Assembly: GCF_010994755.1 (NCBI RefSeq)
Contig: NZ_WHSB02000001.1
Span: forward strand, 496,001 to 560,000
Direction: 5' to 3'
DNA: 64,000 nt
Origin: Shinella lacus
GTDB lineage: Bacteria > Pseudomonadota > Alphaproteobacteria > Rhizobiales > Rhizobiaceae
Shown here: positions 10,809 to 26,536 of the stretch, piece by piece
How the letters are laid out: the number at the start of each line of letters is the position of its first letter
Numbering within the stretch: the stretch's first letter is position 1
Position numbers and translations under genes: made by a program
Notes under the pieces: generated by a model
The model's database searches: none
What the model saw: the letters and a program-made list of their open reading frames with translations, nothing else
What the model was told of the DNA's origin: nothing

Positions 10809-11888
10809 TTACCCCACCGTTTTACGAGCGACTACCAGATATGCGGAATAATACATGCAGGATCGGTCGTGCAACCGGACATGCCAGGGTGCTTCTCCGA
10901 CCGAGCCCGTGCGCCGCAGGCTGCCGGCGGCGAGCGGCCCTTCGGAGAGCAGGAGGTCGAGGATGGCCTCCGGGCTGCCGGCGTGGGTTGAGCGCTGCGA
11001 ATGGCCGCCAAGCCAGGCCTCCACCGGCGTCACCTGCCCCGCCCAGTCGAAGGGCACGGACAACACGGCGCTGCCTTCGTCCACCAGCACGCGGCTGATC
11101 TCGGTGAGGCCCGCGCGCGGATCGCGCATACAATCGACGACGTTCATGCCGATGGCGAGCGCGAAAGTGCCGGAGGTAAAGGGCAGTGCCAGCGCATCGC
11201 AGAGCCAGACGTCGCCGCGCCCTTCGGCCCCGTGGCTGAGCGGATAGGTGCGCCGGTCATAGACCAGGCCGATCCGGCGCAAGCCGTAATCGACTTGGCC
11301 GCCGACCACGGCCTGGCGGCCGGTGCGTGCCAGCGGCACGGAAAGGTCGATGCCGAGCACGTCGCGGCCGAGCCGTTCGGCGGCGTCCACGACGGTGCGC
11401 CCGGCGGCGCAGCCGATATCGAGCACCGGGCCGTCCGGCAGCCCATCGTCCAGCATATCGAGCGCCTGCGTGAGATTGCGCGACACCGCTCCCGGCACCC
11501 CGCCGCCCGGCACCGGGGGAAAAGCCACGGGATCCTGGTCGCCCCAATGGTCCCAGGCATAGGAGGAGACGTGCTGGCGGATCGATTCGAGGCCGCTGCC
11601 CGGCCCCGCCGCATCCCCGAGCAGGCTTTCGACCGCGGGCGTGAGGTCGCTCCGCGCCAAGAGGTAGAAGAGGTTGTCCTGCACGAAGCGGCGTACTTCC
11701 GGCACGATGATCGGCATGCCGTCGATGATCGGGAATTCGGAGCCGCAGGCCTGGCAGCCGAGGATGCCGCTGGCGACATCGCCATGCGCCTCCGCCTCGA
11801 CGACACTCAACACCAGCGGCGCATCCCGCCCGTTCAGGCGGCAGACGGGGCAGACCGGCCGTAGTTTCTCGAAATGGGACAGGCGCAC
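10809..11888 (-). CDS. Zinc-ribbon class I methyltransferase within the T6SS operon
   Basis: The 359-residue protein begins with a Trm112-like zinc ribbon (Cys13-x2-Cys16 and Cys45-x2-Cys48). A Rossmann methyltransferase domain follows, with S-adenosylmethionine motif I VLDIGCAAGRT at about 155-165, then GIDLS and a post-motif VVDCMRDPRAGLTEISRVL typical of methyltransferase domain 11. The substrate cannot be told from sequence. The start is GTG, 1 nt from the stop of the upstream PAAR gene, so it is clearly in the operon. Such an enzyme is not a core T6SS part. Modifying a T6SS component, such as the neighbouring PAAR or FHA protein, or making a small molecule are both possible inferences. 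Confidence 0.85.
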   Translation of the reverse strand: MRLSHFEKLRPVCPVCRLNGRDAPLVLSVVEAEAHGDVASGILGCQACGSEFPIIDGMPIIVPEVRRFVQDNLFYLLARSDLTPAVESLLGDAAGPGSGLESIRQHVSSYAWDHWGDQDPVAFPPVPGGGVPGAVSRNLTQALDMLDDGLPDGPVLDIGCAAGRTVVDAAERLGRDVLGIDLSVPLARTGRQAVVGGQVDYGLRRIGLVYDRRTYPLSHGAEGRGDVWLCDALALPFTSGTFALAIGMNVVDCMRDPRAGLTEISRVLVDEGSAVLSVPFDWAGQVTPVEAWLGGHSQRSTHAGSPEAILDLLLSEGPLAAGSLRRTGSVGEAPWHVRLHDRSCMYYSAYLVVARKTVG

Positions 11889-11889
11889 G

Positions 11890-12270
11890 TCAGCCGCCGA
11901 TCATCACGGTCGGGCAGCCAGGCGGCAGGATTTTCCCTACGGGGCTCGGGATCGGCGCAACGCAGGCCGCATGCATCGTCATGTCATTGATTCGCGCTGC
12001 GGGCAGGTTGCCAATCAGGACCGTCGCGGAGCCCATGCTGATCATGCCCGGCCCGCCAGGAACGCAGCCTGGCAGGGAGCACAGAATGGTCATGTCCGTA
12101 ACCCTTGCGGCAGGCATGTTGCCAATCAGCACTGTCGGCAAGCCGCCGATGATCGCCAGCGGCAGGGCCGGATGCGGCACGGGCGTCGGAACGAGCGCGG
12201 CCGGATGGATCGGCGCATGGCAATGCGGCGCATCCTGCTTGACCAAATCCCCCATGCGCGCGGCGTTCAT
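11890..12270 (-). CDS. PAAR-domain spike-tip protein
   Basis: PAAR proteins sharpen the VgrG tip and can carry effectors. This 126-residue protein has the PAAR fold pattern with two near-identical internal repeats (TVLIGNMPAARVTDMT and TVLIGNLPAARINDMT) and a third partial one near the C-terminus (CPTVMIGG). Conserved His/Cys residues (HCHAP, LCSLPGC, MHAAC) could bind the tip metal. There is no C-terminal toxin extension, so any cargo would bind non-covalently. The ATG overlaps the stop of the upstream kinase gene by 4 nt. It is encoded on the opposite arm from vgrG, about 5 kb away. Confidence 0.92.
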   Translation of the reverse strand: MNAARMGDLVKQDAPHCHAPIHPAALVPTPVPHPALPLAIIGGLPTVLIGNMPAARVTDMTILCSLPGCVPGGPGMISMGSATVLIGNLPAARINDMTMHAACVAPIPSPVGKILPPGCPTVMIGG

Positions 12271-13274
12271 GATGCCCTATCCGTCCTGCTGGCCAACTGT
12301 TTTTCGATGCTCAACACGTTCCAGCCATTACGACGGCAGTAGGAAACCCTGTCAAGCAGCGTGCGGACGAAATGCATGCCGAGCCCGCCGATCTGGCGGC
12401 TTTCGAGGTCCGCATCGAGATCCGGCTCGGGAATGCCGAGCGGATCGAAGGGGCGGCCGTCGTCCTGCACCTCGATCGCCAGGCGGTCCGCGGCAATCGA
12501 CAGCGACAGCAGGATCTCGTGCGCCTCGCCGTCCTCGAAACCATAATTCACGGCGTTGGTGAGGATCTCGTCGAGCGCGACGTCGATGCGTGTGACGTCC
12601 TCCTCGCCGACGCCGTGCATCTCCAGGAAGCGCCGCACCTTTTCGGCCGCGACCTGGATGTCGCCATGGCTGTTGCCGATGGAAAAGATCGTCTCCTGCG
12701 CCAGGCGCCCCGGCGTCTTGAACAGCAGCGCGCAGGCGGCGCCGGAGCGGCTGCGGTCGATGCCGTCGCGGATAAGCCCGGCAATGTCCTTCGATGGCGC
12801 AGTGGCTTTGGGCGGATCGATATCGCCGGCGGCAAGCCAGGCGACGTCGCCGGACACCATTTCCCGCTGATTCGTCCGGCCGGAGATCGTCACCGCCGCC
12901 TTTCCACGCGCCGCATAAGACACCTTGCCGGACACCACGTCGAGAACGAGCAGGCCGATATCGAGGCCGGCTGTGTCGACGTGTGCCGCAAGCGCCTCCA
13001 GCGCCTGCCCCGCGCTCAGCGTCGTCGCGACGACCGCGCGCAACAATTGGCGCAGGCCTGTCGCGCGCAGCGCCGCGTCGATATCGCCCCCCGCGACGCG
13101 GGCCGTGCTGATCGCGAGCACCGAGCGGGCCGGCCAATGGTGATCGTAGAAGGAGATCGACCCACGCCCGTCACCGGCGCCGCCCTCCAGCTCGGCCTCG
13201 CGCCGGACGGGGAAACGCTGCGGCGAGAGCGACGCGCGCAGATGCGCGACAAGGGCTTCATCCGACACTGCCAT
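12267..13274 (-). CDS. Pseudo-PP2C fused to RsbW-type HATPase (anti-sigma-factor-like Ser kinase)
   Basis: The 335-residue protein has two parts. Residues about 35-190 follow the PP2C/SpoIIE fold pattern (SFYD at 41-44, VAGGDIDAAL, LDVVSGKVSYAARGK). However, the metal-binding sites are gone: GGD is replaced by SIS, the GDV site by STA, TSDG by AAGD, and the final DD pair by uncharged residues. Residues about 195-325 form an RsbW/SpoIIAB-like GHKL ATPase with N-box DEILTNAVNYGF (235-246), G1 DDG (271-273) and G2 GGLGMH (296-301). Such kinases phosphorylate STAS antagonists, and the divergent neighbour is a STAS gene. GTG at 13277 is an alternative start. It is the first gene of the minus arm. 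Confidence 0.85.
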   Translation of the reverse strand: MAVSDEALVAHLRASLSPQRFPVRREAELEGGAGDGRGSISFYDHHWPARSVLAISTARVAGGDIDAALRATGLRQLLRAVVATTLSAGQALEALAAHVDTAGLDIGLLVLDVVSGKVSYAARGKAAVTISGRTNQREMVSGDVAWLAAGDIDPPKATAPSKDIAGLIRDGIDRSRSGAACALLFKTPGRLAQETIFSIGNSHGDIQVAAEKVRRFLEMHGVGEEDVTRIDVALDEILTNAVNYGFEDGEAHEILLSLSIAADRLAIEVQDDGRPFDPLGIPEPDLDADLESRQIGGLGMHFVRTLLDRVSYCRRNGWNVLSIEKQLASRTDRAS

Positions 13275-13382
13275 CACGTCGTCACCCCAAAGCGTTTCAA
13301 AAAACCTTCTGGCAAGTCGTATAACTTTCTGAAATCATCACGCCACAAAGTGATCAACAGGAAGCCCGAGGTCAATATCATC
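13275..13382. promoter_or_regulatory. Divergent promoter region between the two T6SS arms
   Basis: This 108-nt gap separates the first genes of the two divergent arms and so should hold promoters for both. On the plus strand a candidate sigma-70-type pair is TTCAAA (13296-13301) and TATAAC (13320-13325), with an 18-nt spacer. I found no convincing sigma-54 (GG-N10-GC) motif and no convincing minus-strand pair. The promoter call is by eye only. Confidence 0.4.
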
Positions 13383-13712
13383 ATGAACATTGCCGAGACG
13401 CGGCAGGCAAACAGCCTAGTCGTCGCGCCCACCGGGCGGATAGACAGCCAGACCTCTCCGGTTTTCGACAGGCACCTCTCCGCCATCATCGAACGGGGCG
13501 ACGTGAACCTGATCATCGACCTGGCGGGCCTGGAATATATCAGCAGCACTGGGCTTTCCGCCTTTCTCTCCGCAGCAAAAAAGGTTCGCGCGGCAGGCGG
13601 ACGCATGTCGCTGACCGGGCTGAACAGTCGTATCCGTCTGGTCTTCGAAATGAGTGGTTTCTTAAGGTTGTTCCCAATCTATGCCAACGTAGATGCCGCA
13701 CTCTCCGGCTGA
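13383..13712 (+). CDS. STAS-domain anti-anti-sigma-like protein (RsbV-type)
   Basis: This small 109-residue protein spans a single STAS domain, like RsbV/SpoIIAA. The conserved loop reads YISSTGLSAFL; by alignment to SpoIIAA (DSSG) and RsbV (DSTG), Ser55 is the residue a partner kinase would phosphorylate, and the preceding Asp is replaced by Ser54. The start is the ATG at 13383; the SD-like AGGAAG lies about 20 nt upstream and CGAGG about 13 nt upstream, so initiation looks weak. It is divergent from the pseudo-PP2C-kinase gene and leads the plus arm, and a REC-PP2C phosphatase sits at the far end of that arm. Together they form a phosphatase/antagonist/kinase set. Confidence 0.9.
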   Translation: MNIAETRQANSLVVAPTGRIDSQTSPVFDRHLSAIIERGDVNLIIDLAGLEYISSTGLSAFLSAAKKVRAAGGRMSLTGLNSRIRLVFEMSGFLRLFPIYANVDAALSG

Positions 13713-13850
13713 AGGCCGATAGGGCGGTAGACTTTTACGGGAACTAGGAATTAGAGTTGCCCGTCATCTTGCCTATATGAATTGATTCTAGTCATCTTTT
13801 TGCGTTGGTGCGGATTGTCGCGTCGGCGCGGCAAAAGCTGGGGGGCCGCT

Positions 13851-16565
13851 TTGCTAAACGTAGATCTGCAATCACTCGTGGGGCGTCTGAACGCACTTTG
13901 CCGTTCGACGCTCGAAGGCGCGGTCGGGCTGACGCTTTCGCGCACCCATTACAATGTCGAAATCGAACATTGGCTGACGAAGCTCGTGGAGACGCCCGAC
14001 AGCGACGTCGCGGCCATCCTGCGGCATTTCGAGATCGATTCGAGCCGGCTTCTGGCGGACCTGACCAAGGTGCTGGACCGGCTGAAGACCGGCAACAGCC
14101 GCTCGCCGGCGCTGACGCCGAACGTCGTCAAATGGATCCGCGAGGCTTGGATCTATGGTTCGCTGCAATCCGGCGACACGTCGATCCGCAGCGGTTACCT
14201 CCTCGTCAGCCTGCTCGGCGACGATGCACTGTCGGCGCTGGCGCGTGATGCGTCCTCGCAATTCGCCCGAATCAATGCCGAGGTGCTGAAGACCGGCCTG
14301 ATGAAGATCGTGTCGGGCAGCAGCGAGGCCGGCCAGTCCGCCTCGGGCGCAAAGGCGACATCCTCCTCCGGTGACGCGCCCGCATCGTCCGGCTCCGGCG
14401 TCGTCAGCGGTTCCGCGCTCGACCAGTACACGATCAACCTGACGGCGCGTGCGCGCGACGGCAAGATCGACCCCGTGCTCGGCCGCGATTCCGAAACGCG
14501 CCAGATCGTCGATATCCTCACCCGCCGCCGGCAGAACAACCCGATCCTCACTGGCGAAGCCGGCGTCGGCAAGACGGCCGTCGTCGAGGGTTTTGCGCTG
14601 AAGATTGCTGCGGGCGAAGTGCCCCCGGCGCTGGCGGACGTGGAACTGCTCTCGCTCGACCTCGGCCTGCTCCAGGCCGGCGCTGGCATGAAGGGCGAGT
14701 TCGAGAACCGGCTGAAGAAGGTGATCGAGGAGGTCAAGGCCTCGGCGAAACCGATCATCATGTTCATCGACGAGGCGCATACGCTGATCGGCGCCGGTGG
14801 TGCCGCCGGCCAGAACGACGCTGCGAACCTCTTGAAGCCTGCCCTTGCCCGCGGCGAGATGCGCACGATCGCCGCCACGACCTGGGCGGAATACAAGAAA
14901 TATTTCGAACGCGACCCTGCGCTGACGCGCCGCTTCCAGGTGGTCAAGGTGGAGGAGCCCGGCGACGAGGCCGCCATCGCCATGATGCGCGGCCTGATCC
15001 CGACGCTCGAACGCCATCATGGCGTGCGTGTGCTCGCCGAAGCCGTGGAGGACGCAGTCCGGCTGTCCCGCCGCTACATTCCGAGCCGCCAGCTGCCCGA
15101 CAAGGCGGTGAGCCTGCTCGACACAGCCTGCGGGCGCGTCGCCATTGCGAGCAACGCCGTTCCGGCCGTCGTCGAGGATCGCCGCCGCCGGGTCAACATG
15201 ATCGACACCGATCTCGGCGTGCTGACGCGCGAAACCAAGATCGGCACGGACCATTCCGGGCGCATCGCTGATCTCAAGGACGAGCGGGTGCGCGTCTCCG
15301 AGGAACTCGAAAAGCTCGAAGAACAGTGGAACCGTGAAAAGGACCTGGTCGGGCAAATTCGCGCGCTGCACGATGCACTGACCGGGCCGGACGACGCACC
15401 TGCGGGCGAAAAGACCCCCGAGGAGATGAAGGCGGAACTGGCGACGCTGACGGCCGAATTGGAAGCGCTGCAGGGCGAGACGCCGCTGATGCGCGTGACG
15501 GTCGACGGCCAGGCGATTGCCGAGGTGGTCGGCAACTGGACGGGCATTCCCGTCGGCCGCATGGTTTCCAACGAGATCAAGACGATCCTCGCCCTCAACG
15601 ACAAGCTGCGCGAGCGCGTCATCGGCCAGTCGCATGCCCTGGAAGCGATCGCCGAGACGATACGCACCTCGCGCGCCAAACTGCTCGATCCGCGCAAGCC
15701 CATCGGCGTCTTCCTGATGGTCGGCACGTCCGGCGTCGGCAAGACCGAGACGGCGCTGGCACTCGCCGACCTGCTCTATGGCGGCGAGCAGAACCTCACC
15801 GTCATCAACATGTCGGAATTCAAGGAAGAGCATAAGGTCTCGATGCTGGTCGGCTCGCCGCCCGGTTATGTCGGCTACGGCGAAGGCGGCGTCTTGACGG
15901 AAGCCGTGCGCCGGCGGCCCTATTCGGTGATCCTGTTCGACGAGATGGAAAAGGCCCATCCCGGCGTGCAGGACGTGTTCTACCAGGTGTTCGACAAGGG
16001 CATGCTGCGCGACGGCGAAGGCCGCGACATCGACTTCAAGAACACCGTCATCATCATGACCTCGAATGCCGGCACCGACCTCATCCACCGCCTCTACGCC
16101 GATCCGGCCAAGCGGCCGGATGTCACGGAGCTGACGGAGGCAATCCGGCCGGAGCTGCTCAAGAGCTTCAAGCCGGCCTTCCTCGGGCGCTGCTCGGTCG
16201 TGCCCTATTTCCCGCTCGCAGACGACGTGATCCGCAAGATCGTCACGCTGCAGCTCAACCGCATCCGCAAGCGGTTCGCGGAGAATTACAACGCGACGCT
16301 CACCTGGGACGAGACGCTCGTCGAAGCGATCGCCAGCCGCTGCACCGAGGTGGAAAGCGGCGCACGAAACATCGAGTACATTCTGTCGCGTGGGCTTCTG
16401 CCGCGGCTTTCGTCGCATGTTCTCGCCGTCATGGCGGATGGCGGCCAGATCGGCGGATTGAAAGCCGTGCTCGATGAAAACGGCCAGTTCGAATTCCACG
16501 CGCAAACTTCGGGCGATACGGTCGTGCAGCCGGACCAACCGCCGGAATTCGTGGCAGCACAATGA
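13851..16565 (+). CDS. tssH: TssH (ClpV), AAA+ sheath-disassembly ATPase
   Basis: ClpV disassembles contracted TssB/TssC sheaths for reuse in the cytoplasm. The protein is about 904 residues from the TTG at 13851. It has a Clp N-domain (LEGAVGLTLSRTHYNVEIEHWL, typical of ClpV), NBD1 with Walker A GEAGVGKT near 234 and Walker B MFIDEAHT, a middle coiled region near 400-500, and NBD2 with GTSGVGKT near 624 and ILFDEMEKAHP. An upstream in-frame TTG at 13782 would add 23 residues unlike ClpV and lacks a ribosome site. The preferred TTG has only a G-rich stretch before it, so the exact start is uncertain. It follows the STAS gene by 138 nt. Confidence 0.95.
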   Translation: MLNVDLQSLVGRLNALCRSTLEGAVGLTLSRTHYNVEIEHWLTKLVETPDSDVAAILRHFEIDSSRLLADLTKVLDRLKTGNSRSPALTPNVVKWIREAWIYGSLQSGDTSIRSGYLLVSLLGDDALSALARDASSQFARINAEVLKTGLMKIVSGSSEAGQSASGAKATSSSGDAPASSGSGVVSGSALDQYTINLTARARDGKIDPVLGRDSETRQIVDILTRRRQNNPILTGEAGVGKTAVVEGFALKIAAGEVPPALADVELLSLDLGLLQAGAGMKGEFENRLKKVIEEVKASAKPIIMFIDEAHTLIGAGGAAGQNDAANLLKPALARGEMRTIAATTWAEYKKYFERDPALTRRFQVVKVEEPGDEAAIAMMRGLIPTLERHHGVRVLAEAVEDAVRLSRRYIPSRQLPDKAVSLLDTACGRVAIASNAVPAVVEDRRRRVNMIDTDLGVLTRETKIGTDHSGRIADLKDERVRVSEELEKLEEQWNREKDLVGQIRALHDALTGPDDAPAGEKTPEEMKAELATLTAELEALQGETPLMRVTVDGQAIAEVVGNWTGIPVGRMVSNEIKTILALNDKLRERVIGQSHALEAIAETIRTSRAKLLDPRKPIGVFLMVGTSGVGKTETALALADLLYGGEQNLTVINMSEFKEEHKVSMLVGSPPGYVGYGEGGVLTEAVRRRPYSVILFDEMEKAHPGVQDVFYQVFDKGMLRDGEGRDIDFKNTVIIMTSNAGTDLIHRLYADPAKRPDVTELTEAIRPELLKSFKPAFLGRCSVVPYFPLADDVIRKIVTLQLNRIRKRFAENYNATLTWDETLVEAIASRCTEVESGARNIEYILSRGLLPRLSSHVLAVMADGGQIGGLKAVLDENGQFEFHAQTSGDTVVQPDQPPEFVAAQ

Positions 16566-16639
16566 AGGCAATCCGGGGCGATTCTTAATAGTCCTCGTCT
16601 ATCGACAACACCTCCATCAGGATACCAAGGGAGCTAACT

Positions 16640-17116
16640 ATGGCAGTCTATCTGAAGTACGAAGGCATCGAAGGGGAAGCGACGCACGAAGCCCACAAGA
16701 AATGGATTGACGTGCAGTCCCTGCAGTTCGGCGTTGGCCGCGGCATCTCCACGCCCACCGGCGCCAGCACGAACCGCGAATCCAGCCAGCCAAGCGTCAG
16801 CGAAGTCGTCGTCACCAAGACGCTCGACAGTTCCTCGACGGCGATCTTCGCCGAGTCCGTAACGGGCACGGCAGGCAAGAAGGTTGAAATCCACCTCGTA
16901 AATACGGGCGACCCGGGCGACACCTATGTCGAATACACGCTGACCGACGCACTTATCTCGGGCTACAGCGTCTCGTCTGGCGGCGACCGTCCGACGGAAT
17001 CGATCTCCATCAACTTTACCAAGATCGAGTTCAAGTTCACGGCATTCGACGCGAAGAACAAGACTGCCAGCCCGAAGGTTGTCGGTTACAACATTGCCAC
17101 GGGCAAGAAGATCTAA
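16640..17116 (+). CDS. hcp: Hcp, T6SS inner-tube protein
   Basis: Hcp (TssD) hexamers stack to form the expelled tube. The 158-residue protein begins MAVYLKYEGIEGEATHEAHK and has the Hcp pattern WIDVQSLQFGVGRGIS, followed by VVVTKTLDSSS and an ISINFTKIEFKFTAFD C-terminal beta strand. The length is normal and there is no fused toxin domain. AAGGGAG sits 8 nt before the ATG. It lies 74 nt after tssH, and a GC-rich hairpin follows before vgrG, which may set separate mRNA levels for this abundant protein. Confidence 0.97.
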   Translation: MAVYLKYEGIEGEATHEAHKKWIDVQSLQFGVGRGISTPTGASTNRESSQPSVSEVVVTKTLDSSSTAIFAESVTGTAGKKVEIHLVNTGDPGDTYVEYTLTDALISGYSVSSGGDRPTESISINFTKIEFKFTAFDAKNKTASPKVVGYNIATGKKI

Positions 17117-17135
17117 CGTCGGTAGATTTGCCTTC

Positions 17136-17171
17136 GCGGCGCGGTCTTCTCGCGAAAGCGGGCCGCGCCGT
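17136..17171 (+). repeat. GC-rich stem-loop between hcp and vgrG
   Basis: CGGCGCGG (17137-17144) pairs with CCGCGCCG (17163-17170), extended by a G-T wobble. The intervening loop contains CGCGAAAGCG, which can form its own GAAA-tetraloop hairpin. No T-run follows, so it looks more like an mRNA-stabilising or attenuating structure than a full terminator. Confidence 0.55.
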
Positions 17172-17261
17172 AGGCTTCGACGGTGGCGGCTTGCCCGCCT
17201 CCGGCCTATTCAAACGACGTCGATGCGTGCCGCGCACACATCCTTCGGGTAGCAAGACTCT

Positions 17262-19298
17262 ATGGCGACGACCCTAGCTCAAGAGGACCATTGGATCACC
17301 CTGGAGACTCCTCTTGGGAAAGATGCCTTTCTTGCGACGGAAGCGCGTGGCAAGGAAGGCATTTCCAACCTCTTCGAATTCACCATCAGCGCCCTGTCCA
17401 CCCGTGCGACGATCGATCCAAGTGATCTGCTGGGCAAGAGCGTGACGCTCTCCATGGCCAGACCCCGCAGCACGCGCCGCTATGTCAACGGCATCGTCAC
17501 CGCCTTTTCCGCCGGCGCTTTCACGCGCAACGATTACCGGCTCTATACACTCGTCATCTCACCCAGCCTGTGGCTTCTCAAGCGCACGTCCGATCACAAG
17601 GTTTTCCAGGAAAAGACCGCCGTCGAGATCGTCGAGCAGCTTTTGGCGGACAGCGCCATCACCTTCGAAAAGAAGCTCAACTCTACCTACGATCCTTCGG
17701 AATACCGGGTGCAATTCGGCGAAACGGATTTCGACTTCTTCCAGCGCCTCCTCGCCGAGGAAGGCATCTTCTATTTTTTCAAGCACGAGGACGGAAAGCA
17801 CACGCTGGTGCTGGCCGACAATGCTTCCGCCTACGCCGAATGCCTGCAGGATACGGTCGAATACCGCCAGGGCCAGGAGGAGGCCGTAGACGGCGTCCAC
17901 ACCTTCGACAGCGGGGCGAGCCTCACCGATGCAATGTGGCATATCGAAGACTACGACTTCGAAAAGCCGGCAAACACGATCGAGGGTGAGCGCAAGGCGA
18001 ACCAGCAGCCGGCCGCCGGAAAGAAATGGGAGCACTTTCGCTTTCCCGGCAATTCCGTCAAGTCCGACACGCTGAAGCGTTTCGCCACCGTCGCCATCGA
18101 CGCCGCCGAGGCAGGCTTCGAGACGACGACCGGAGGCGGCACATGCGCAAGCTTCACGAGCGGCCATGCCTTCACGCTGAAGGCTCACCCCGTGGATGGC
18201 GAAAACCGCCGCATGACGCTGACCGAGATACGTCACGAAGCTCTCGACCGCGCGTATTTCAACATCCGGCCCGGCACGGAGGGCAAACCGTACTATCGCA
18301 ACACCTTTTCCTGCATTCCGGCAGCGCGTATCGCCCGTAATCCGCTACCGACGCCCAAACCCATCGTGCAAGGTCCGCAGACCGCCCTCGTCGTCGGGCC
18401 TTCCGGCGAGGAAATCCACACCGATAAATACGGACGCATCCGCGTGCAGTTCCATTGGGATCGTTACGGCAAGAAGAACGAGACAAGTTCCTGCTTCGTG
18501 CGCGTGGCGCAATCGCTCGCCGGCAGCAACTGGGGCTCCGTCTTCGTGCCGCGCATCGGCATGGAGGTCGTCGTGCAGTTCCTTGACGGCGATCCGGACC
18601 GCCCATTGGTAACGGGCGCCGTCTACAATGCCGACAACATGCCGCCCTGGGCTCTGCCCACCAACATGACGAAGAGCGGCCTGCTGACGCGCAGCAGCAA
18701 ATCGGGCCAGACGGCGAATGCCAACGAGCTTTCCTTCGAGGACAAGAAGGGCGAGGAGAAGATCACCTTCCACGCCGAAAAGGACTTTCTGCGCGAGGTT
18801 GAGAACGACGACACGCTGACCGTCGACCACGACCAGAAACGCACGATCAAGAACGATCGCACTACCGAGATCACAGAAGGCAATGAGACCTTCACGATCA
18901 AGAAGGGCAACCGGACAGAGAAGATCGAGACCGGAAACGAGACGCTCGACATCGACAAGGGCAAGCGCACGGTGACAATTGCCACCGGTGGCGACACGCT
19001 GACGCTCAAGCAAGGCGACCGGGCGGTGACGTTGAACGTGGGCAGCGACACCCTGACCCTCACCCAGGGCAATCAGACAACGAAGGCCAGCGCCGGCAAG
19101 ATAACCCTCGAGGCGATGCAGGGCATTACGCTGAAATGCGGTAGCAGCACAGTGGAGCTCACCCAGGCCGGCATCACCATCAAAGGTGTCACGGTGTCGA
19201 TCGAAGGGTCCGCCCAAAGCGAGATCAAGGGCCCGATCGTCAATGTCGCGGGCGATGGTATGGCCATCGTCAAGGGCGGCATGGTCAAGATCAATTAG
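17262..19298 (+). CDS. vgrG: VgrG (TssI), T6SS spike protein
   Basis: VgrG trimers cap the Hcp tube and puncture the target. The 678-residue protein has the gp27-like base (about 1-390; FEFTISALS, EYRVQFGETDFDFFQRLLAEEGIFYFF) and the gp5 OB domain (about 395-470; EIHTDKYGRIRVQFHWDR, WGSVFVPRIGMEVVVQFLDGDPDRPLVTG). From about 515 on, short repeats (TLTVDHDQKRTI, TFTIKKGNRTEKI, TLDIDKGKRTVTI, TLTLKQGDRAVTL) form the needle-like beta-helix. It ends in VKGGMVKIN with no toxin extension. It lies 145 nt after hcp and 6 nt before a small unknown gene that is the best candidate for a dedicated partner. Confidence 0.97.
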   Translation: MATTLAQEDHWITLETPLGKDAFLATEARGKEGISNLFEFTISALSTRATIDPSDLLGKSVTLSMARPRSTRRYVNGIVTAFSAGAFTRNDYRLYTLVISPSLWLLKRTSDHKVFQEKTAVEIVEQLLADSAITFEKKLNSTYDPSEYRVQFGETDFDFFQRLLAEEGIFYFFKHEDGKHTLVLADNASAYAECLQDTVEYRQGQEEAVDGVHTFDSGASLTDAMWHIEDYDFEKPANTIEGERKANQQPAAGKKWEHFRFPGNSVKSDTLKRFATVAIDAAEAGFETTTGGGTCASFTSGHAFTLKAHPVDGENRRMTLTEIRHEALDRAYFNIRPGTEGKPYYRNTFSCIPAARIARNPLPTPKPIVQGPQTALVVGPSGEEIHTDKYGRIRVQFHWDRYGKKNETSSCFVRVAQSLAGSNWGSVFVPRIGMEVVVQFLDGDPDRPLVTGAVYNADNMPPWALPTNMTKSGLLTRSSKSGQTANANELSFEDKKGEEKITFHAEKDFLREVENDDTLTVDHDQKRTIKNDRTTEITEGNETFTIKKGNRTEKIETGNETLDIDKGKRTVTIATGGDTLTLKQGDRAVTLNVGSDTLTLTQGNQTTKASAGKITLEAMQGITLKCGSSTVELTQAGITIKGVTVSIEGSAQSEIKGPIVNVAGDGMAIVKGGMVKIN

Positions 19299-19304
19299 GG
19301 GTAG

Positions 19305-19916
19305 ATGGTGAAAATCCAGACGGAAGCCTTTCGCAAGGTGACAGCCCAGACGGCACAGGATATCTGCGGCCGGGCGGAGCTTTCAGCCGAGGCCCTCCCC
19401 TTTCTATTGCCCACCCTGTCGCCACAGGGTTTCCTGTCGCTTCTGGTCGAGGCGGAAAACATTGGGGACGCCATACGTTTCCTCGCCTTCACCTTGCCGA
19501 TCCGCGAGGCGATCTGGTGGTGCTATGTCGTCGCTAAAACCAGCATTCCGGCACCGACGGAGCTGGAATTGCTGTGCCTGGAGCGTACGGCCGCCTGGGT
19601 CTACGAGCCGGACGATTCCCGCCGCCGCTCTTGCATGGAGTGCGCCGAATCGGCCAAGTTCAAGGGGGCTGCGGCCTATGCGGCACTCGCGGTCTTCTGG
19701 TCGGGCGGAAGCCTTGCGCCGGAAGGCATGCCGGACGCAGACGCCGACCCTCGGTTGGGGCCGATCGGTGCCGGGGCGTCGGTGCTGCTGTCGATTACAG
19801 CAGGAGATGCTAAGAACCTTGTGGAGCGCTTCGAGACAGCGGTGACACGAGGGGTGAACATTGCCAATGGCGGCAACGGCTGGTTGCCGGGCGAGCGGCC
19901 GACGGGAAGCAATTGA
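19305..19916 (+). CDS. Unknown VgrG-linked protein
   Basis: The 203-residue protein starts at an ATG 6 nt after the vgrG stop, with GGGG just before it, so it is almost certainly co-translated with vgrG. It has no signal peptide and no clear membrane helix. The sequence is alanine- and leucine-rich and probably helical. Visible stretches are IRFLAFTLPIREAIWWCYVVAK, the Cys pair CMEC near residue 106, and a C-terminal GVNIANGGNGWLPGERP. I do not recognise a catalytic motif. The position suggests an adaptor or chaperone loading cargo onto VgrG, or cargo itself, but nothing in the sequence decides this. Confidence 0.8.
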   Translation: MVKIQTEAFRKVTAQTAQDICGRAELSAEALPFLLPTLSPQGFLSLLVEAENIGDAIRFLAFTLPIREAIWWCYVVAKTSIPAPTELELLCLERTAAWVYEPDDSRRRSCMECAESAKFKGAAAYAALAVFWSGGSLAPEGMPDADADPRLGPIGAGASVLLSITAGDAKNLVERFETAVTRGVNIANGGNGWLPGERPTGSN

Positions 19917-19923
19917 TCCCAGC

Positions 19924-19942
19924 CGAATCGAGAGATTCGTTT
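19924..19942 (+). terminator. Weak terminator-like hairpin after the vgrG unit
   Basis: CGAATC (19924-19929) and GATTCG (19934-19939) form a 6-bp stem closed by a GAGA (GNRA) tetraloop and followed by TTT. It begins 8 nt after the stop of the VgrG-linked gene and 115 nt before tssA, so it may separate the hcp-vgrG unit from the tssA-tssE unit. Confidence 0.4.
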
Positions 19943-20056
19943 CAAGATCGATTAAGTATTTGGGGCTAAGCATTCTTCTGCCAGCTCCGCGCGTGCGGTA
20001 TCCGAGTAAAAGTTTCCAAGCGACCAGGCCCCGCAAGGGCAGGAGGATATCTACCC

Positions 20057-21187
20057 ATGGCTCTGCCGCAGGTCATCGATATCGACGCTCTGCTCCAGGC
20101 GATCTCGGAAGAGGCGCCTGCCGGGACAGATCCGCGCGCCGATAGCTCGCCTGCCTCGCTCTATTACCGCACCAAGGACGCCCGCAACGCCGCCCGCTCC
20201 GCGGAACGCGCCGCCGTCGAGACCGGTGGTGCATCGCCCGAGGAATGGGACACCGTCGCCGACACCGCGATGACGATCCTCGCTTCCCACGGCAAGGATC
20301 TCGAAATCGCCGCTTGGCTCGTTGAGGCTCTCTTGCGAACCGAAGGTTTTGCCGGCCTGCGCGACGGCATGAAGGTGCTCACCGGCATCGTCAACGGCTT
20401 CTGGGAAACCTGCTTCCCCGAGCTCGACGAAGACGGTGTGGAAGGAAAAGTTTCCGCAGTCGCGGGCCTCAACGGTTCGGGCGCGGTCGGAACACTCATT
20501 CAGCCGATCCGGCTTGTATCGATCACGCGCGGCTCGCAATGGAGCTTTTCGCTCTGGAACTACGAGCAGGCGCGCGACCTCGCGAAGGTCACTGATCCCG
20601 ACCGCCGCCAGGAGCGCATCGACAACGGCGCCGTGACCATGGAGCAATTCCTGGAAAGCGTGGCGGATACATCCGTCGCCTTCTTCGCCGAAACCCAGGC
20701 CGTCATCGTGGAGACGCTGGCGGCGCTGGCGGAGATGTCTGCAGCCTTCGATGCGGTGGCTGGTGTCGATGCACCGCCCGTTTCAGCGCTTCGCGAAATG
20801 CTGGAGGAAATCTCCCGCTCGATTGCCCACTTCGCCGCGGACAAACTTGCAGTCGCGAACTATTCTGCCGACAGCGAGGAAGTTTCCGCCGGCGACGCGG
20901 GCCAGCAAGGTGAAGGCGGTCAGCAGGTGTCCGGCACCGTCGTCGTCCGCAAGATCGAGGGCTACCAGTCCCGTGACGAGGCGTTGGCGGAACTGACGCG
21001 CATTTCCGCTTACTTTCGCAAAACCGAACCGCATTCGCCCATGTCGTACACGCTTGAAGACGCCGTCCGGCGTGCGCGCATGAGCCTACCCGATCTGTTG
21101 GTGGAACTGGTCGAAGACCCGGCCCACCTTCAGCGCATCCTGTTGGCGGCGGGCATCAAGCCGCCGTCGACCGAACAAGGTTATTAA
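20057..21187 (+). CDS. tssA: TssA, T6SS tube/sheath assembly cap
   Basis: TssA organises baseplate and tube-sheath elongation. The 376-residue protein carries the ImpA N-terminal domain (about 8-130), with the characteristic [29 protein letters not shown] and a [24 protein letters not shown] stretch, then a C-terminal part containing [40 protein letters not shown]. An AGGAGG lies about 9 nt before the ATG. A 140-nt gap and a weak hairpin separate it from the vgrG unit, so it may begin its own transcript with tssB, tssC and tssE. Confidence 0.95.
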
Positions 21188-21236
21188 TTCCCTATCGCAT
21201 ATCCGCAACCATTCACCGCTTGAAGAGGGGGCCGTC

Positions 21237-21746
21237 ATGGCAGAAAGCGTTCAACAGAAGCTCAAAAGGGTGCGCGCACCGCGCGTCCACATCACTTACG
21301 ACGTGGAAACGGAAGGCGCACAGGTCCGCAAGGAACTGCCCTTCGTCGTGGGCGTCATCGGCGATTTCTCCGGCAAGCCCTACGAGCCGCTGAAGCCGCT
21401 GCGCGACCGCAAGTTCATCCAGATCGACCGTGACAACTTCGACGACGTCATGCAGCGCATGACGCCCGGCGCGGAATTCAAGGTCGAGAACACGCTGGCC
21501 GGCGACGATACGTTGATGCCGGTCTCGCTGAAGTTCAAGTCGATCAACGACTTCGAGCCCGGCGCCGTCGTTGAACAGGTCGAGCCGCTTCGCAAGCTTC
21601 TCGCCGTTCGCAACAAGCTGCGCGACCTGATGTCGAAGGTGGACCGGTCGGAAGAACTCGAAAGCCTCCTGGAGGAGGTCCTGCAGAACACCGACAAGCT
21701 TGCATCCCTTGCCAACGAGCTTGGCGCCGAGAAAGCGAAGGAGTAG
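21237..21746 (+). CDS. tssB: TssB, small T6SS sheath subunit
   Basis: TssB (VipA/ImpB) pairs with TssC to form the contractile sheath. The 169-residue product contains the family hallmarks [26 protein letters not shown] and [18 protein letters not shown], and a helical C-terminus. Length is typical. GAGGGGG lies upstream of the ATG. It is followed by tssC after 4 nt, matching the fixed tssB-tssC order. Confidence 0.97.
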
Positions 21747-21750
21747 TCGA

Positions 21751-23244
21751 ATGAGCGCCGAGACCCAAACAGCCGGCAGCACAGCCGTCGCAGAAGAAAC
21801 CGGCTCCCTGAGCCTTCTCGACCAGGCCATCCAGGTCACCAAGACCGCCGAGCCGGACGAAATCCAGGACCTGTTGCGCACGCTGACGTCGGAAGCCCTT
21901 TCCGGCACGGTCACGTTCAGCAAGAACCTGACGCAGACCTTCAACAAGGCGATTGCCGCAATCGACGAAAAGATGTCGAAGCAGCTGACCGCCATCATGC
22001 ACAATGAAGAATTCCAGAAGCTGGAAGGCAGCTGGCGTGGCCTCAACTACCTCGTCAAGAATTCGGAAACCAGCTCGACGCTGAAAATCCGCGTTCTCAA
22101 CCTGTCGAAGAAGGAACTGCACAAGGACTTGACCAAGGCAGTCGAGTTCGACCAGAGCCAGACCTTCAAGAAGCTCTACGAAAACGAATTCGGCACACCC
22201 GGCGGCGAGCCCTACGGCGCGCTCATCGGCGACTTCGAGTTCGGCTCCGGCACGGAAGACCTCGAAGTGCTGCAGGGCATGTCCAATGTCGCTGCAGCCT
22301 CCTTCGCGCCCTTCATCTCGGCCGCAAGCCCGAAAATGTTCGGCCTGGAAAGCTTCACCGAACTCTCCAAGCCGCGCGATCTCGAAAAGATCTTCGACAG
22401 CTCGGAATACATCAAGTGGCGCGGTTTCCGTGACAGCGAAGACAGCCGCTTCGTCACGCTGACCATGCCGCGCGTGCTCGCCCGCGTTCCCTTTGGCTCG
22501 CAGGGCAAGCAGATCGACGAGTTCAAGTTCGAGGAAGCTCCGATCGACGCCAATGGCGTTGTCAGCAAGATGGAGTCGAACGACTTTACCTGGATGAATG
22601 CCTCCTACGCGCTCGGTGAGCGCCTGACATCAGCCTTCTCGAAGTACGGCTGGTGCGTGGCGATCCGCGGTGCGGAAGGCGGCGGCAAGGTCGAGAACCT
22701 GCCGACCTTCACCTTCACCAGCGACGACGGCGACGCCGACCAGCAATGCCCGACGGAAATCGGCATCACTGACCGCCGCGAGGCAGAGCTTTCCAAGCTC
22801 GGCTTCCTGCCGCTCTGCCACTACAAGAGCACGGACTACGCGGTGTTCTTCGGCGCGCAGACCACGCAGCGCGCGAAGAAGTACGACAAGCCCGATGCAA
22901 CGGCCAACGCGGCGATCTCTGCCCGTCTGCCTTATATCATGGCAACGTCGCGCTTCTCGCACTACCTCAAGGTCATGGGCCGCGACAAGATCGGTTCGTT
23001 CCTCGAAGTTCGCGATTGCGAAAACTGGCTCAACAACTGGATCCGCAACTTCGTCAACGGCAATCCGGATGCGAGCGCAGAAATGAAGGCGCAGTATCCT
23101 CTCGCCGAAGCCCAGGTTACGGTGAAGGAAATCCCCGGTTCCCCGGGTGCCTACAACGCTGTCGCTTATCTCCGCCCGTGGTTGCAGATGGAAGAGCTCA
23201 CTGCATCCATGCGCCTCGTCGCGCGCATCCCGCAGATGGGCTGA
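21751..23244 (+). CDS. tssC: TssC, large T6SS sheath subunit
   Basis: TssC (VipB/ImpC) is the major sheath subunit recognised by ClpV. The 497-residue protein shows the full ImpC pattern: [102 protein letters not shown] and a C-terminal [20 protein letters not shown]. The start is the ATG at 21751, 4 nt after tssB, with GGAG upstream. An in-frame extension into tssB exists but has no support. Confidence 0.97.
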
Positions 23245-23251
23245 CGCAGGC

Positions 23252-24790
23252 ATGGAACACGACGCAGTCATCGCCGTGGAAGACGCTTCCAGCGGCGATG
23301 GCGCAAAAAGCGAAGCCGGCATTCGGCTTCGCATCATCGATGCGGTTCTCGAGCGTGGCGGAGAGGAAACCTCCGCCACGCTCGACCGTTTCATCGCGAG
23401 CGACGACCCGGCGGAGTGCCTTCGCCTGTGGTTCGGCACACGCGGCGGCGGCGATGGCTGGCGGGCGGTGCTAACCCGAGACATCGCGGCGATCGATCCG
23501 CTGCTTGGCGACCAGGTCGATGCGATCATCCACACGGCGGAGTTCAAGGCGCTCGAAGCCACTTGGCGCGGCGTCGATTTGCTGCTGTCGGAAACCGGCA
23601 ACGACGACAAGGTCCGCATCAAGCTCTTCAATGTCACATGGTCCGAACTCTCGCGCGATTTCGATCGCGCGATCGAATTCGATCAGAGCACATTGTTCGC
23701 CAAGGTCTACAGCGAGGAATATGGCATGCCAGGCGGCGTGCCATATGGGCTGCTGCTTTGCGACCATGCGGTGCGTCACCGCGCGCCATCGGGTAGCGCG
23801 GGCCCGCAGGACGATGTCGGCACACTTTCCGGCCTGGCGCAGGTCGCGGCGGCATCGTTTTCTCCCTGCATCCTTGGTGCCGCACCGGAACTGTTCGGGG
23901 TCACCACTTTCGCCGACCTCTCCTATGCGCAGCGGCTCGATGCCGGTTTCCAGCTCGGTGAGTATCACCGCTGGCGCCGGCTCCGCGACCTGGAGGACAG
24001 CCGCTTCCTCGGGATCGCCATGCCGCGCATCCTGTTGCGCGACCGCTATAAGGACTCCGCCTCACGGCAGGACGGTTTCCGCTATAGCGAAGGCGGAGCG
24101 GGCGTCGATTCCTGGTTATGGGGCAATGCCGCCTTCGCCTTCGGCGTGATCTCCATCCGTGCGTTTCGCGAATGGGGCTGGTTTGCCGATATGTGTGGTA
24201 CGCGCGGCCCGCAGGCCGATCTTGGCGGCGTCATCAGCCACCTGCCGGTTGCGCAATTTTCGACCGGCGAGAAGGTCGCCTATCGGCGGCCGCTGGAAGT
24301 CGAGCTGACCGACAAGAAGCAAAAGATTTTGGAAGCTCTCGGTTTCATCGCGCTCACGCCGTGCAATTTCGATCGCTCTGTCGTCTTCCTTGGCGCGCAA
24401 TCGCTTTATGCGGCACCGAGTGACAACGACCTTCCAGCCCAGGTGAACGGCCGACTTTCCTCCATGCTGCACTACGTCATGTGTATGAGCCGGTTCGCCC
24501 ACTACGTGAAGATCATGGCGCGCGACCGGGTCGGCGCCTATACGACGCCGCAGGATCTCGAACGTTACCTCGAAGAATGGCTGCGCAACTACACGATCGG
24601 CAACACCGACGCCAGCGCGGAGTTGAAGGCGCGTTATCCGCTCGCCGGCGCGCGATTGGAAATGAGCGAGGTCAGCGGTCGGCCCGGCGTGATGAACTGC
24701 GTGCTGCACCTCCAGCCGCATTTCCAGTTCGACCAAGTCGTGACGGGGTTCCGGATGCGGACCGAAGTGCAATCCATGCGGTCGCGGTAG
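23252..24790 (+). CDS. Second TssC-type sheath protein (TssC paralogue)
   Basis: The 512-residue protein is a diverged TssC paralogue starting 7 nt after the tssC stop. It retains LEATWRGVDLLLSETG, AIEFDQSTLFAKVYSEEYGMPGGVPYG, RWRRLRDLEDSRFLGIAMPRILLRDRY, RFAHYVKIMARDRVGAYTT and a C-terminal LQPHFQFDQVVTGFRMRTEV. It has an N-terminal extension of about 60 acidic residues and a loop insertion near 175-190. Agrobacterium also encodes two adjacent TssC proteins (TssC41 and TssC40), so the pair is a known rhizobial arrangement. Whether it enters the sheath or acts at the baseplate is not evident. Confidence 0.92.
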   Translation: MEHDAVIAVEDASSGDGAKSEAGIRLRIIDAVLERGGEETSATLDRFIASDDPAECLRLWFGTRGGGDGWRAVLTRDIAAIDPLLGDQVDAIIHTAEFKALEATWRGVDLLLSETGNDDKVRIKLFNVTWSELSRDFDRAIEFDQSTLFAKVYSEEYGMPGGVPYGLLLCDHAVRHRAPSGSAGPQDDVGTLSGLAQVAAASFSPCILGAAPELFGVTTFADLSYAQRLDAGFQLGEYHRWRRLRDLEDSRFLGIAMPRILLRDRYKDSASRQDGFRYSEGGAGVDSWLWGNAAFAFGVISIRAFREWGWFADMCGTRGPQADLGGVISHLPVAQFSTGEKVAYRRPLEVELTDKKQKILEALGFIALTPCNFDRSVVFLGAQSLYAAPSDNDLPAQVNGRLSSMLHYVMCMSRFAHYVKIMARDRVGAYTTPQDLERYLEEWLRNYTIGNTDASAELKARYPLAGARLEMSEVSGRPGVMNCVLHLQPHFQFDQVVTGFRMRTEVQSMRSR

Positions 24791-24806
24791 CAAGGAAGGA
24801 TAGAGC

Positions 24807-25286
24807 ATGGCCCGCCTTCCCAACAAAGCGCCTCCGCGGCTTCCCCTCTTCGACCGGCTGCTACAGGGCGACAGTATCGAGACGGATCGCAACGTCGATC
24901 GCGCCATGCAAGAGATGCACGAATCCGTGCGGCGTGATCTCGAAATTCTCTTCAACACCCGTCCCGGTCGCCTGCCCGAGGACGAGAGACTTCTGGAACT
25001 GCGCCAGTCGATCCTGACCTATGGCCTGCCGGAGGTACAGAGCCAGCACCTCGCCTCGCCCGCCCAGCAGGAACAGTTCCGTAAGCACTTGGAAGAGGTC
25101 ATCCGCCGCTTCGAGCCGCGCTTCCGTGAGCTTTCCGTCGTGCTGGTCGTGCCGGAAAACCAGATGGAGCGGGTGCTGCGCTTCCAGATCAACGCCCTGA
25201 TGGAAACCGACAGCTCCAGCGAGGCCGTCACCTTCAACACGGCGATCGACCCCGTCACTGGCATGCTCTCCATCAACGGACGCTGA
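24807..25286 (+). CDS. tssE: TssE, gp25-like baseplate subunit
   Basis: TssE is the T4 gp25-like wedge protein that initiates sheath polymerisation. The 159-residue protein carries the GPW/gp25 domain (about 30-145), with VRRDLEILFNTRP, LLELRQSILTYGLPEVQS and FEPRFRELSVVLV. The length is in range. AAGGAAGG precedes the ATG, which lies 16 nt after the TssC paralogue. It is the last structural gene of the plus arm. Confidence 0.95.
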   Translation: MARLPNKAPPRLPLFDRLLQGDSIETDRNVDRAMQEMHESVRRDLEILFNTRPGRLPEDERLLELRQSILTYGLPEVQSQHLASPAQQEQFRKHLEEVIRRFEPRFRELSVVLVVPENQMERVLRFQINALMETDSSSEAVTFNTAIDPVTGMLSINGR

Positions 25287-25369
25287 GCCGTCTTTGAAAC
25301 CTCCGGCGATTGGCGTAACGTGATGGCGGCCGATCGCGGGTTCTACAGCACAGCATTCATGAGGTCTCT

Positions 25370-26536
25370 TTGGATTTCTCCCAGGCACGTATCCTCATCG
25401 TCGATGATATCGAGGACAACCGGGATGTGCTGGCACGCCGCCTCCGGCGGCTCGGCCTCGTCAACACCGTGCAGGCCGGCGATGGGCTCGAAGCGCTCGA
25501 AAAGGTGCGCGCGGAGCCCTTCGACCTGATCCTGCTCGACGTGATGATGCCGCGCATGAATGGCATCGATGCGCTTCAGGCATTGAACGACGAAGGCTGG
25601 CTCAAATCGCTGTCCGTCGTGATGATCTCCGCGGCGTCCGAAATCGAGACGGTGGTGCGCTGCATCGAGCTCGGCGCCGAGGATTACCTGCCGAAACCCT
25701 TCAACCCGGCACTGCTTGCCGCCCGCGTCGGTGCTGTGCTGGAAAAAAAGTTGCTGCGCGATATCAACCAGCGCCAGCTCGAACGGCTTGAACGGGAGCT
25801 GGCGGAAGCCTGGCTCTGCCAGCAATCCATGCTGCCGACCACCTTCCCCGTCAATCCCGCCCAGCTCGATATCTTCGCCAGCATCGACCCGGCGCTGGAA
25901 ATCGGCGGCGATCTCTACGACGTCTTCGAGGTAACGCCCGGCCTGATTGCGCTGGCGATTGGCGATGTCGCCGGCAAGGGCGCCTCCGCCGCCCTTTTCA
26001 TGGCGCGCACGCGCAGCCTGCTGCGCGCCGGCACCTTGCAATTCCACGCCATTTCGGGACGGGTGCCGCGCCCCTCGGAAATCATCGCCCTCGTCAATGA
26101 CGAACTCGGCAAGAACAATCCGAACTCGCGATTTGTCACGCTATTCTACGCCCTGCTGGAGGTCGCCACCGGCCGCCTCACCTACTGCAATGCCGGCCAC
26201 GTCTACCCGATCTGGACAAGCGGAAACACCGTCGCCGAAGTGGCGACAGCGCCCGATCCCGCGCTCGGTGTCATCGATGCGCTCGACTTCCACGACCACG
26301 AGCTCGTGCTCGCCGTGGGCGACCGCCTTTTCCTCACCTCGGATGGCCTTTCGGACATGCAGAACGCTGATCAGGAGCAGTTCGGAACAGAAAACATCCT
26401 TGCCGAAATCGCCGCCCGCCCAAACGCGTCTGCAACCGACCTCGCCCGTAGCGTACTGGCGACGGCCTATGCCTTTGCAGACGGCGCGCCGCAATTCGAC
26501 GACATCACCGTGCTCGTCTTTGGAAGGCTCAGTTAA
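25370..26536 (+). CDS. Response regulator with PP2C/SpoIIE phosphatase domain (RsbU-type)
   Basis: The 388-residue protein has a receiver domain (about 6-120) with acidic pair D12-D13, phospho-acceptor D57 (LLLDVMMP context) and K109, then a linker and a PP2C-type Ser phosphatase (about 165-388). The metal-binding aspartates are present: GGD181, YD184, GD199V, D325 in TSDG, and the D377-D378 pair. It should therefore be active, unlike the PP2C copy in the kinase fusion. The start is a TTG with GAGG 6 nt upstream. Position at the end of the T6SS plus arm and the STAS/kinase pair at 12267-13712 suggest that it dephosphorylates the STAS protein. No cognate histidine kinase is in the window. Confidence 0.93.
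   Translation: MDFSQARILIVDDIEDNRDVLARRLRRLGLVNTVQAGDGLEALEKVRAEPFDLILLDVMMPRMNGIDALQALNDEGWLKSLSVVMISAASEIETVVRCIELGAEDYLPKPFNPALLAARVGAVLEKKLLRDINQRQLERLERELAEAWLCQQSMLPTTFPVNPAQLDIFASIDPALEIGGDLYDVFEVTPGLIALAIGDVAGKGASAALFMARTRSLLRAGTLQFHAISGRVPRPSEIIALVNDELGKNNPNSRFVTLFYALLEVATGRLTYCNAGHVYPIWTSGNTVAEVATAPDPALGVIDALDFHDHELVLAVGDRLFLTSDGLSDMQNADQEQFGTENILAEIAARPNASATDLARSVLATAYAFADGAPQFDDITVLVFGRLS

Follow-up and report, generated by a model that had tools for sequence, protein, structure and literature searches.

A candidate partner switch carried by one lineage of type VI secretion loci in Shinella and its relatives

Here we describe a type VI secretion system (T6SS) locus in a window of 64,000 nucleotides (G000:C1:496001-560000, the whole stretch analysed; positions below count from its first letter). 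The window belongs to G000, a 7.04-Mb draft genome whose host family is probably Rhizobiaceae; of the named relatives found, Shinella sp. SUS2 is the nearest, with synteny extending through the T6SS. The locus encodes an RsbW-type HATPase serine kinase, most likely fused to a degenerate PP2C domain, on the minus strand (12267-13277) and, on the plus strand, a STAS antagonist (13383-13712) and a SpoIIE-family PP2C phosphatase with a receiver (REC) domain, REC-PP2C (25370-26536). Judged from gene content and its conservation, the STAS protein and the kinase probably form a partner switch that serves this T6SS lineage specifically, in place of a TagF/PppA brake. A sequence-only reading of the window had named the same three genes, and Pfam matches confirm each at its place, save that the kinase gene, starting at 12267 as proposed, ends three bases beyond the proposed 13274.

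The genes lie in two divergent runs, probably operons, that meet at about 13.3 kb. The leftward run, on the minus strand and identified by Pfam matches, leads from the kinase through genes for a PAAR protein (11890-12270; PF05488), a methyltransferase-like protein conserved in all 10 loci of the clade defined below (10809-11888) and an FHA protein (9992-10738; E-value (E) 1.1e-16), the last also noted in the earlier reading, to tssJ (9438-9995), tssK (8030-9361), tssL-OmpA (6574-8019), a short tssM-like gene (4799-6577), tssM (1287-4802) and tssF (1-1175), which crosses the left window edge (PF05947 at G000:C1:495352-497175). Beyond that edge the run continues with tssG, a second methyltransferase gene and a Hanks kinase gene. 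The rightward run, on the plus strand, consists of the STAS gene, tssH/clpV (13782-16565; AAA, AAA_2 and ClpB_D2-small; 75% identity to the annotated TssH of Aureimonas sp. AU20), hcp (16640-17116; PF05638), vgrG/tssI (17262-19298; Pfam), a gene for a DUF6931 protein (19305-19916; PF22011, E 1.5e-40) that from its position is a probable vgrG-linked accessory, tssA (20057-21187; PF06812), tssB (21237-21746; PF05591), tssC (21700-23244; PF05943), a second tssC-like gene (23147-24790; PF05943), tssE (24807-25286; PF04965), the REC-PP2C gene and a gene at 26632-27435. By this order the kinase heads one run and its presumed antagonist, the STAS protein, heads the other.

The three proteins carry features of the RsbU/V/W type, namely SpoIIE-type PP2C metal ligands, a STAS serine and GHKL kinase boxes. 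The STAS protein (PF01740, E 3.7e-21; TIGR00377 above cut-off) has the motif Y-I-S54-S55-T-G, with Thr56 following the two serines, and S54, S55 and G57 are invariant in 11 STAS rows. S55, singled out earlier as phosphorylatable, aligns with serines of RsbV (6m36) and SpoIIAA (1auz) that we take to be their phosphosites. In the REC-PP2C (Response_reg, E 8.5e-29; SpoIIE, E 5.9e-43), all four metal motifs, GGDLYD, GDVAGKG, SDG and FDDIT, are intact, as had been claimed. In the kinase (HATPase_c_2, E 1e-24), the N, G1 and G2 boxes (E-N, DDG and GGLGM) are invariant in 9/9 aligned clade kinases, and matches to RsbW models (E 3e-13 and 5e-12) fall below the equivalog cut-offs.

The label of RsbW-type kinase thus holds for the HATPase part of this protein, and a plain RsbW it is not, since its N-terminal residues 1 to ~195 resemble a degenerate PP2C domain. 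This region gives a weak SpoIIE match (E 0.0034), and the scores of the kinase homologues against a PP2C profile are weak, exceeding the inclusion threshold in seven of nine and falling short of it in G670 and G694; for the AU20 kinase, Pfam matched the HATPase part alone. The first three PP2C metal motifs are replaced in all nine homologues, and the fourth is without a counterpart in the alignment. A predicted structure (mean predicted local distance difference test score, pLDDT, 79.9; predicted TM-score, pTM, 0.62) has as its best PDB match, over the model length, the RsbU and RsbW domains of Rv1364c (3ke6; E 5.5e-15), with a TM-score of ~0.4 and a root mean square deviation of 14.9, indicating that the domain arrangement differs. 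Because the metal motifs are lost while a weak SpoIIE match and a fold match persist, the protein is most likely a pseudophosphatase-kinase.

Several lines of evidence tie the STAS/kinase pair to this T6SS. First, both genes are present at the T6SS in all ten loci of one clade: the window, SUS2, G719, G740, G670, G796, G631, G602, G694 and AU20. In a profile scan of 40 fetched T6SS loci, which we chose from 82 TssK matches (the window's own included), STAS and RsbW matches (E <= 1e-4) were obtained in 7/7 clade loci and in 0/33 others; the same-family label of the comparison genomes is inferred from closeness to Shinella, several loci end at contig ends, and three (G023, G603 and G659) are shorter than 23 kb. 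The 33 pair-free loci include the second T6SSs of G796, G602 and G631, and the SpoIIE profile matched weakly in two of them (G823 and G778; E 3e-5 to 7e-5). The earlier reading had held that regular absence or random replacement in related loci would speak against a resident module; for the pair, neither was found. In TssK trees, nine and then ten clade members fall on one side of a branch with 100/100 support (for the second tree, seven distant rows were dropped and four added; G856 lay outside the TssK search). The tenth member, Aureimonas sp. AU20, belongs to another family and carries the locus on plasmid pAU20a; its STAS protein is 67% and its kinase 40% identical.

Second, in 9/9 clade genomes the sole strong RsbW-type match genome-wide sits at the T6SS. 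This search covered 80 genomes, 71 of 88 TssB-positive genomes plus nine others; most of the 17 omitted belong to genera that the set already included. The T6SS kinase of G000 matches HATPase_c_2 with an E of 9.4e-25, and the runner-up in that genome with 7e-7; G856 has an additional weak, partial RsbW match (E 4.6e-10). Third, a plasmid collection yielded 197 records with TssK (E <= 1e-60) and five with a kinase match, with AU20, at least, in both sets. A separate collection search with the full-length kinase led no further, finding Shinella sp. SUS2 only, and in the order and phylum samples, outside the kinase's own genome, matches cover its HATPase part only. Fourth, the kinase gene adjoins the PAAR gene in 10/10 loci, overlapping it by 4 bases in seven (window included) and by 26 bases in G602, with gaps of 18 bases in G694 and 63 bases in AU20, and the STAS gene directly precedes tssH in 8/10.

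One further locus, in G072, combines a single RsbW and a STAS gene beside a different T6SS. We set it aside, as its neighbours (major facilitator superfamily (MFS), ATP-binding cassette (ABC) substrate-binding and PP2C genes) look like a self-contained btr-like cluster and as TagF and PP2C_2 lie on the same 32.5-kb contig.

With the pair in 10/10 clade loci and in 0/33 other same-family loci, these comparisons place it with this T6SS and not with the genome at large, and its distribution reads as a single gain followed by retention in at least five genera. Such retention also makes it very improbable that the switch merely travels with the locus while regulating another process, as do the gene overlap with PAAR, the absence of a second strong RsbW-type copy from every clade genome searched, and pairwise ratios of non-synonymous to synonymous substitution (dN/dS) of 0.10-0.26 across the three genes (two relatives compared for STAS and kinase, one for REC-PP2C).

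The locus also carries part of the threonine phosphorylation pathway. The sequence-only reading had found an FHA protein without PpkA, PppA or TagF. The missing PpkA proved to be a window-edge artefact and is rejected: a PpkA-like Hanks kinase (Pkinase, E 4.1e-24; K, HRD and DFG present) is encoded by the leftward gene run itself, 3.2 kb beyond the window edge. The other two absences extend to the whole G000 genome, in which neither TagF (PF09867) nor a PppA-type PP2C_2 (PF13672) has a match. The locus thus resembles the PpkA-Fha-PppA/TagF pathway in its Hanks kinase and FHA protein and differs from it in lacking PppA-type PP2C_2 and TagF matches in G000. Whole-genome profile searches likewise gave no match to either in G719, G740 or G856, and neither is found in the annotated 41-kb stretch of AU20. 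In G670, G796, G631, G602 and G694, TagF is present in a single copy, each time ~5-6 kb from a second TssK, and PP2C_2 shares a contig or region with the second T6SS, with an additional strong PP2C_2 copy in G670 and G796 on a contig without a TssK match. By comparison, TagF occurs in 14/14 same-family control genomes and in G072; elsewhere, T6SS loci of Tistrella and Pseudoroseomonas have tagF and a PP2C gene, and that of Skermanella has tagF. With TagF absent at the clade loci and present in the controls, the gene content puts the switch where the TagF brake is missing, and the switch may replace the TagF/PppA brake.

What might set the switch is suggested by the neighbours of the REC-PP2C. 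Relatives of this phosphatase (53-83% identity) were found at >= 53% identity in 6/12 genomes searched, and the same six have a DUF3365 protein while the other six have none. DUF3365/Tll0287 domains are described, in the portion consulted of a preprint, as c-type haem Cache sensors, some binding nitric oxide and some probably redox sensors (PMC12889525); the DUF3365 protein of the locus carries a CXXCH motif. AU20 has an uninterrupted series of genes next to its T6SS, encoding DUF3365, a hybrid histidine kinase, REC, REC-PP2C (58% identity) and the Hanks kinase. Genes corresponding to the first four of these are clustered in G155 with those for a HATPase kinase and STAS, and no T6SS gene was detected there within 20 kb. 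In G631 the REC-PP2C, hybrid kinase and DUF3365 genes lie together elsewhere in the genome (C1:737666-743389), on the same 8.45-Mb contig as the T6SS at 7.93-7.98 Mb, and in G130 the REC-PP2C and DUF3365 genes are 67 kb apart. With the hybrid kinase and DUF3365 genes at the left end of the G000 locus and the REC-PP2C gene at its right end, the three-part module of the window looks like two ends of one cascade. In G602 and G694, a PP2C with a cyclic nucleotide monophosphate (cNMP)-binding domain is encoded just upstream of tssH instead of the REC-PP2C, and on such gene contents the phosphatase input is modular. A Skermanella rosea plasmid connects this sensor family to T6SS a second time: its annotation places a DUF3365 haem-c Cache protein between tagF and the Ser/Thr kinase of a different T6SS (L208 23423-24295).

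A second module flanks the locus to the left of the window. It comprises a coiled-coil-type PP2C, a methyltransferase with a fused slr1659-like domain (NCBIfam slr1659 superfamily, 38.9 of 100 bits, below cut-off), a SiaA-like Cache-HAMP-PP2C (dCache below cut-off) and two slr1658-like genes, one below and the other above the superfamily cut-off. Against Sia models the set stays below all cut-offs (SiaA, 124.9 of 700 bits; SiaB, 22 of 85 bits), and SiaC gave no match. The set lies beside the T6SS in eight of the ten clade loci (window, SUS2, G719, G740, G670, G796, G631 and, on the other side, G602); in G694 a different contig holds three of its genes, and none was found in AU20's stretch. The slr1658 and slr1659 profiles matched 0/33 other T6SS loci. 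Profile comparison of slr1658 with RsbW gave a probability of 85%, over 44 columns only. We rejected the slr1659-like N-terminal domain of the methyltransferase as a demonstrable STAS, profile comparison having returned no similarity.

Several of these observations weigh against a dedicated switch, or narrow what it would mean. The pair is confined to one clade, so that ten loci of ten represent one gain with retention and not ten independent events. In the phylum sample, none of the 70 further genomes with a T6SS was shown to have an RsbW beside TssB, so that the arrangement is not general; RsbW matches at E <= 1e-9 occur in six of the 70, two on the same contig as TssB at 0.8 and 1.4 Mb, and four on contigs other than TssB's, so that their distance is not measurable. 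Within the clade, tssH lies elsewhere and not after the STAS gene in G602 and G694, and STAS and kinase are 2.6 kb apart in G602. The absence of PP2C_2 extends to five of the 14 controls (G684, G752, G648, G618 and G589), which makes the PppA result weaker than that for TagF, and five clade genomes retain TagF and PP2C_2 for another T6SS. Finally, of the complete three-part module proposed earlier, the STAS/kinase pair stands as constant, and the REC-PP2C does not: it is beside the T6SS in 4/10 clade loci only (window, SUS2, G719 and AU20), with the cNMP-PP2C instead in two. Besides the relocated copy in G631, no close REC-PP2C was found in the other five clade members, and in three of them (G740, G670 and G796) neither a close REC-PP2C nor a cNMP-PP2C was found; therefore another PP2C must serve there.

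The second module, moreover, makes the pairing of phosphatase and antagonist ambiguous. The three proteins of the window might not form one pathway, the STAS/kinase pair being served by the coiled-coil PP2C or the SiaA-like PP2C and the REC-PP2C acting elsewhere. The placement of the REC-PP2C away from the T6SS in 6/10 loci and the two other SpoIIE phosphatases flanking the locus in 8/10 fit such a division. We nonetheless consider it unlikely: in G130 and G155 the REC-PP2C (53% identity) is contiguous with STAS and HATPase genes, and AU20, the first clade branch in a midpoint-rooted tree, has its REC-PP2C beside the Hanks kinase.

Other features of the locus bear less directly on the switch. 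The second tssC-like gene is divergent, its clade counterparts sharing ~33-37% identity with the first tssC. The short IcmF/TssM-like protein has the N-terminal domain only and is encoded beside a full tssM in 10/10 clade loci. The protein at 26632-27435, following the REC-PP2C, has no Pfam match, is 91% identical in G719 and SUS2 and is possibly an effector or accessory protein. Three methyltransferase-like proteins are encoded in or beside the T6SS runs, one in the window, as listed above, and two to its left (L043 11036-12214 and 16234-17772). An open reading frame on the minus strand at 13872-16571, without a Pfam match, was rejected as a gene and is a shadow of the plus-strand tssH.

Partner switches of this kind can control transcription, and the kinase might likewise be an anti-sigma factor (or the STAS protein an activator) for an unlinked sigma factor or regulator of the tss genes, following the Rsb paradigm. 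Among named models, those that match the kinase best are of anti-sigma factors, with scores short of the cut-offs; the STAS and kinase genes sit at the divergent promoter region; and RbaVWY of Rhodobacter capsulatus, according to the part of the source consulted, alters gene expression although no sigma factor is known for it (PMC3999984). Against this, a cognate sigma factor as in sigma-B or sigma-F control was not encountered: the locus genes scanned (window 1-34665 and L043 5842-18876) include no sigma gene, in line over that part with the earlier statement that the window has none. In the AU20 stretch a sigma-54-dependent regulator is the sole annotated sigma-related exception. The missing TagF, furthermore, points to a post-translational layer. 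A transcriptional output therefore appears to us somewhat unlikely, and we favour T6SS assembly as the output, as the sequence-only reading had suggested.

Everything beyond gene content in the following scheme we infer from sequence. The kinase and STAS protein would be produced together with the T6SS machine. With no signal, the kinase would phosphorylate STAS Ser55 and so be left free to hold a T6SS target inactive; once a PP2C is on, the dephosphorylated STAS protein would bind the kinase and the target would be released. In a SypA- or BtrV-like wiring, of the kind outlined in the part of the source consulted (PMC8256260), the STAS protein would itself be the output, and present data do not distinguish this from the classical wiring. 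In the window's genus, the PP2C would be the REC-PP2C, with the haem-c Cache protein (DUF3365) and the hybrid histidine kinase, encoded at the opposite end, driving it. The switch would take over from the TagF/PppA brake on the Hanks-kinase/FHA pathway. TagF acts on Fha, according to the portions consulted of two sources (PMC10482370; PMC5995506), and because TagF is missing we favour FHA as the direct target, or the TssL/TssM membrane complex that would recruit it; the identity of the target is the least certain step.

A wider reading is possible, if doubtful when taken as a whole: that partner switching, with inputs that can be exchanged, has supplanted the TagF/PppA brake; that a periplasmic haem-c Cache sensor (of redox state or nitric oxide) and a hybrid kinase gate T6SS firing via the REC-PP2C, the STAS protein and the pseudophosphatase-kinase; that a second, slr1658/slr1659-SiaA-like switch is layered on the same machine; and that the same solution arose independently in a T6SS of Burkholderiales. 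To the question of what restrains and fires a T6SS that lacks PppA and TagF, this lineage offers a compact candidate answer, namely a partner switch as resident controller, built from a pseudophosphatase-kinase fusion and swappable sensory phosphatases. The earlier view that such use is not well described agrees with the full-text literature searched, in which, among the top matches and as far as titles and the first lines of abstracts tell, no T6SS partner switch was found; the terms partner, STAS, anti-sigma and SpoIIE have zero occurrences in the part consulted of a 2023 review of T6SS regulation (PMC10482370).

Among known systems, several share parts of this architecture. Rv1364c of Mycobacterium tuberculosis likewise has a PP2C fold followed by an RsbW fold in one chain, and the window kinase differs in that its PP2C part has lost the metal motifs. 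RbaVWY of R. capsulatus shares with the window a combination of REC-PP2C (RbaY), STAS (RbaV) and HATPase (RbaW), a likeness in architecture; as far as the consulted part of the source goes, no sigma target was found there either, rbaVW form a two-gene operon with rbaY identified separately, and the system affects a gene transfer agent (PMC3999984). HsbR/HsbA and SiaABCD of Pseudomonas aeruginosa, as far as the sources were covered, follow the same partner-switch logic and act on biofilm control; SiaA-like HAMP-PP2C and slr1658-family proteins flank the locus here, and no diguanylate cyclase is among the genes scanned.

Partner-switch genes were also met at other secretion loci. On a plasmid of Caballeronia sp. 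NK8 (Burkholderiales; L206 12872-16662), one of the five plasmid records with a kinase match, an unannotated Cache-type PP2C, a HATPase and a STAS gene with overlapping ends, together with a second STAS gene, adjoin hcp/tssB of a divergent T6SS (tssB 32% identical). A Nitratidesulfovibrio plasmid (L211 12001-12768) has STAS and ATP-binding protein genes within a type III secretion system (T3SS) gene run, near type I-C CRISPR genes. Two stretches beside T6SSs resemble btrO-M-N-U, going by the gene list of the Bordetella T3SS locus in the part consulted of its source (PMC7498569): MFS, glutamate-cysteine ligase, ABC substrate-binding and SpoIIE genes on the AU20 plasmid (L209 1679-8924), and MFS, ABC substrate-binding, SpoIIE and GNAT-like genes in G072 (L032 12027-20000).

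By analogy, the nearest precedent is BtrUVW of the Bordetella T3SS. According to the same part of that source, BtrU, BtrV and BtrW are needed for secretion, and a SpoIIE phosphatase, a STAS protein and a serine kinase are there, as here, encoded with the secretion system (PMC7498569). That system is a T3SS with BtrA and a linked extracytoplasmic function (ECF) sigma factor, BtrS, whereas the present locus has a T6SS, a kinase fused to a pseudo-PP2C, a REC-type phosphatase and, as far as the locus genes were scanned, no sigma gene. Although they are a few cases met through our queries and not a survey, BtrUVW and the Caballeronia and Nitratidesulfovibrio loci point to repeated recruitment of partner switching by secretion systems. 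The parallel with the little understood BtrUVW control of the T3SS suggests, in particular, that partner switching has been recruited repeatedly for the control of secretion machines instead of sigma factors.

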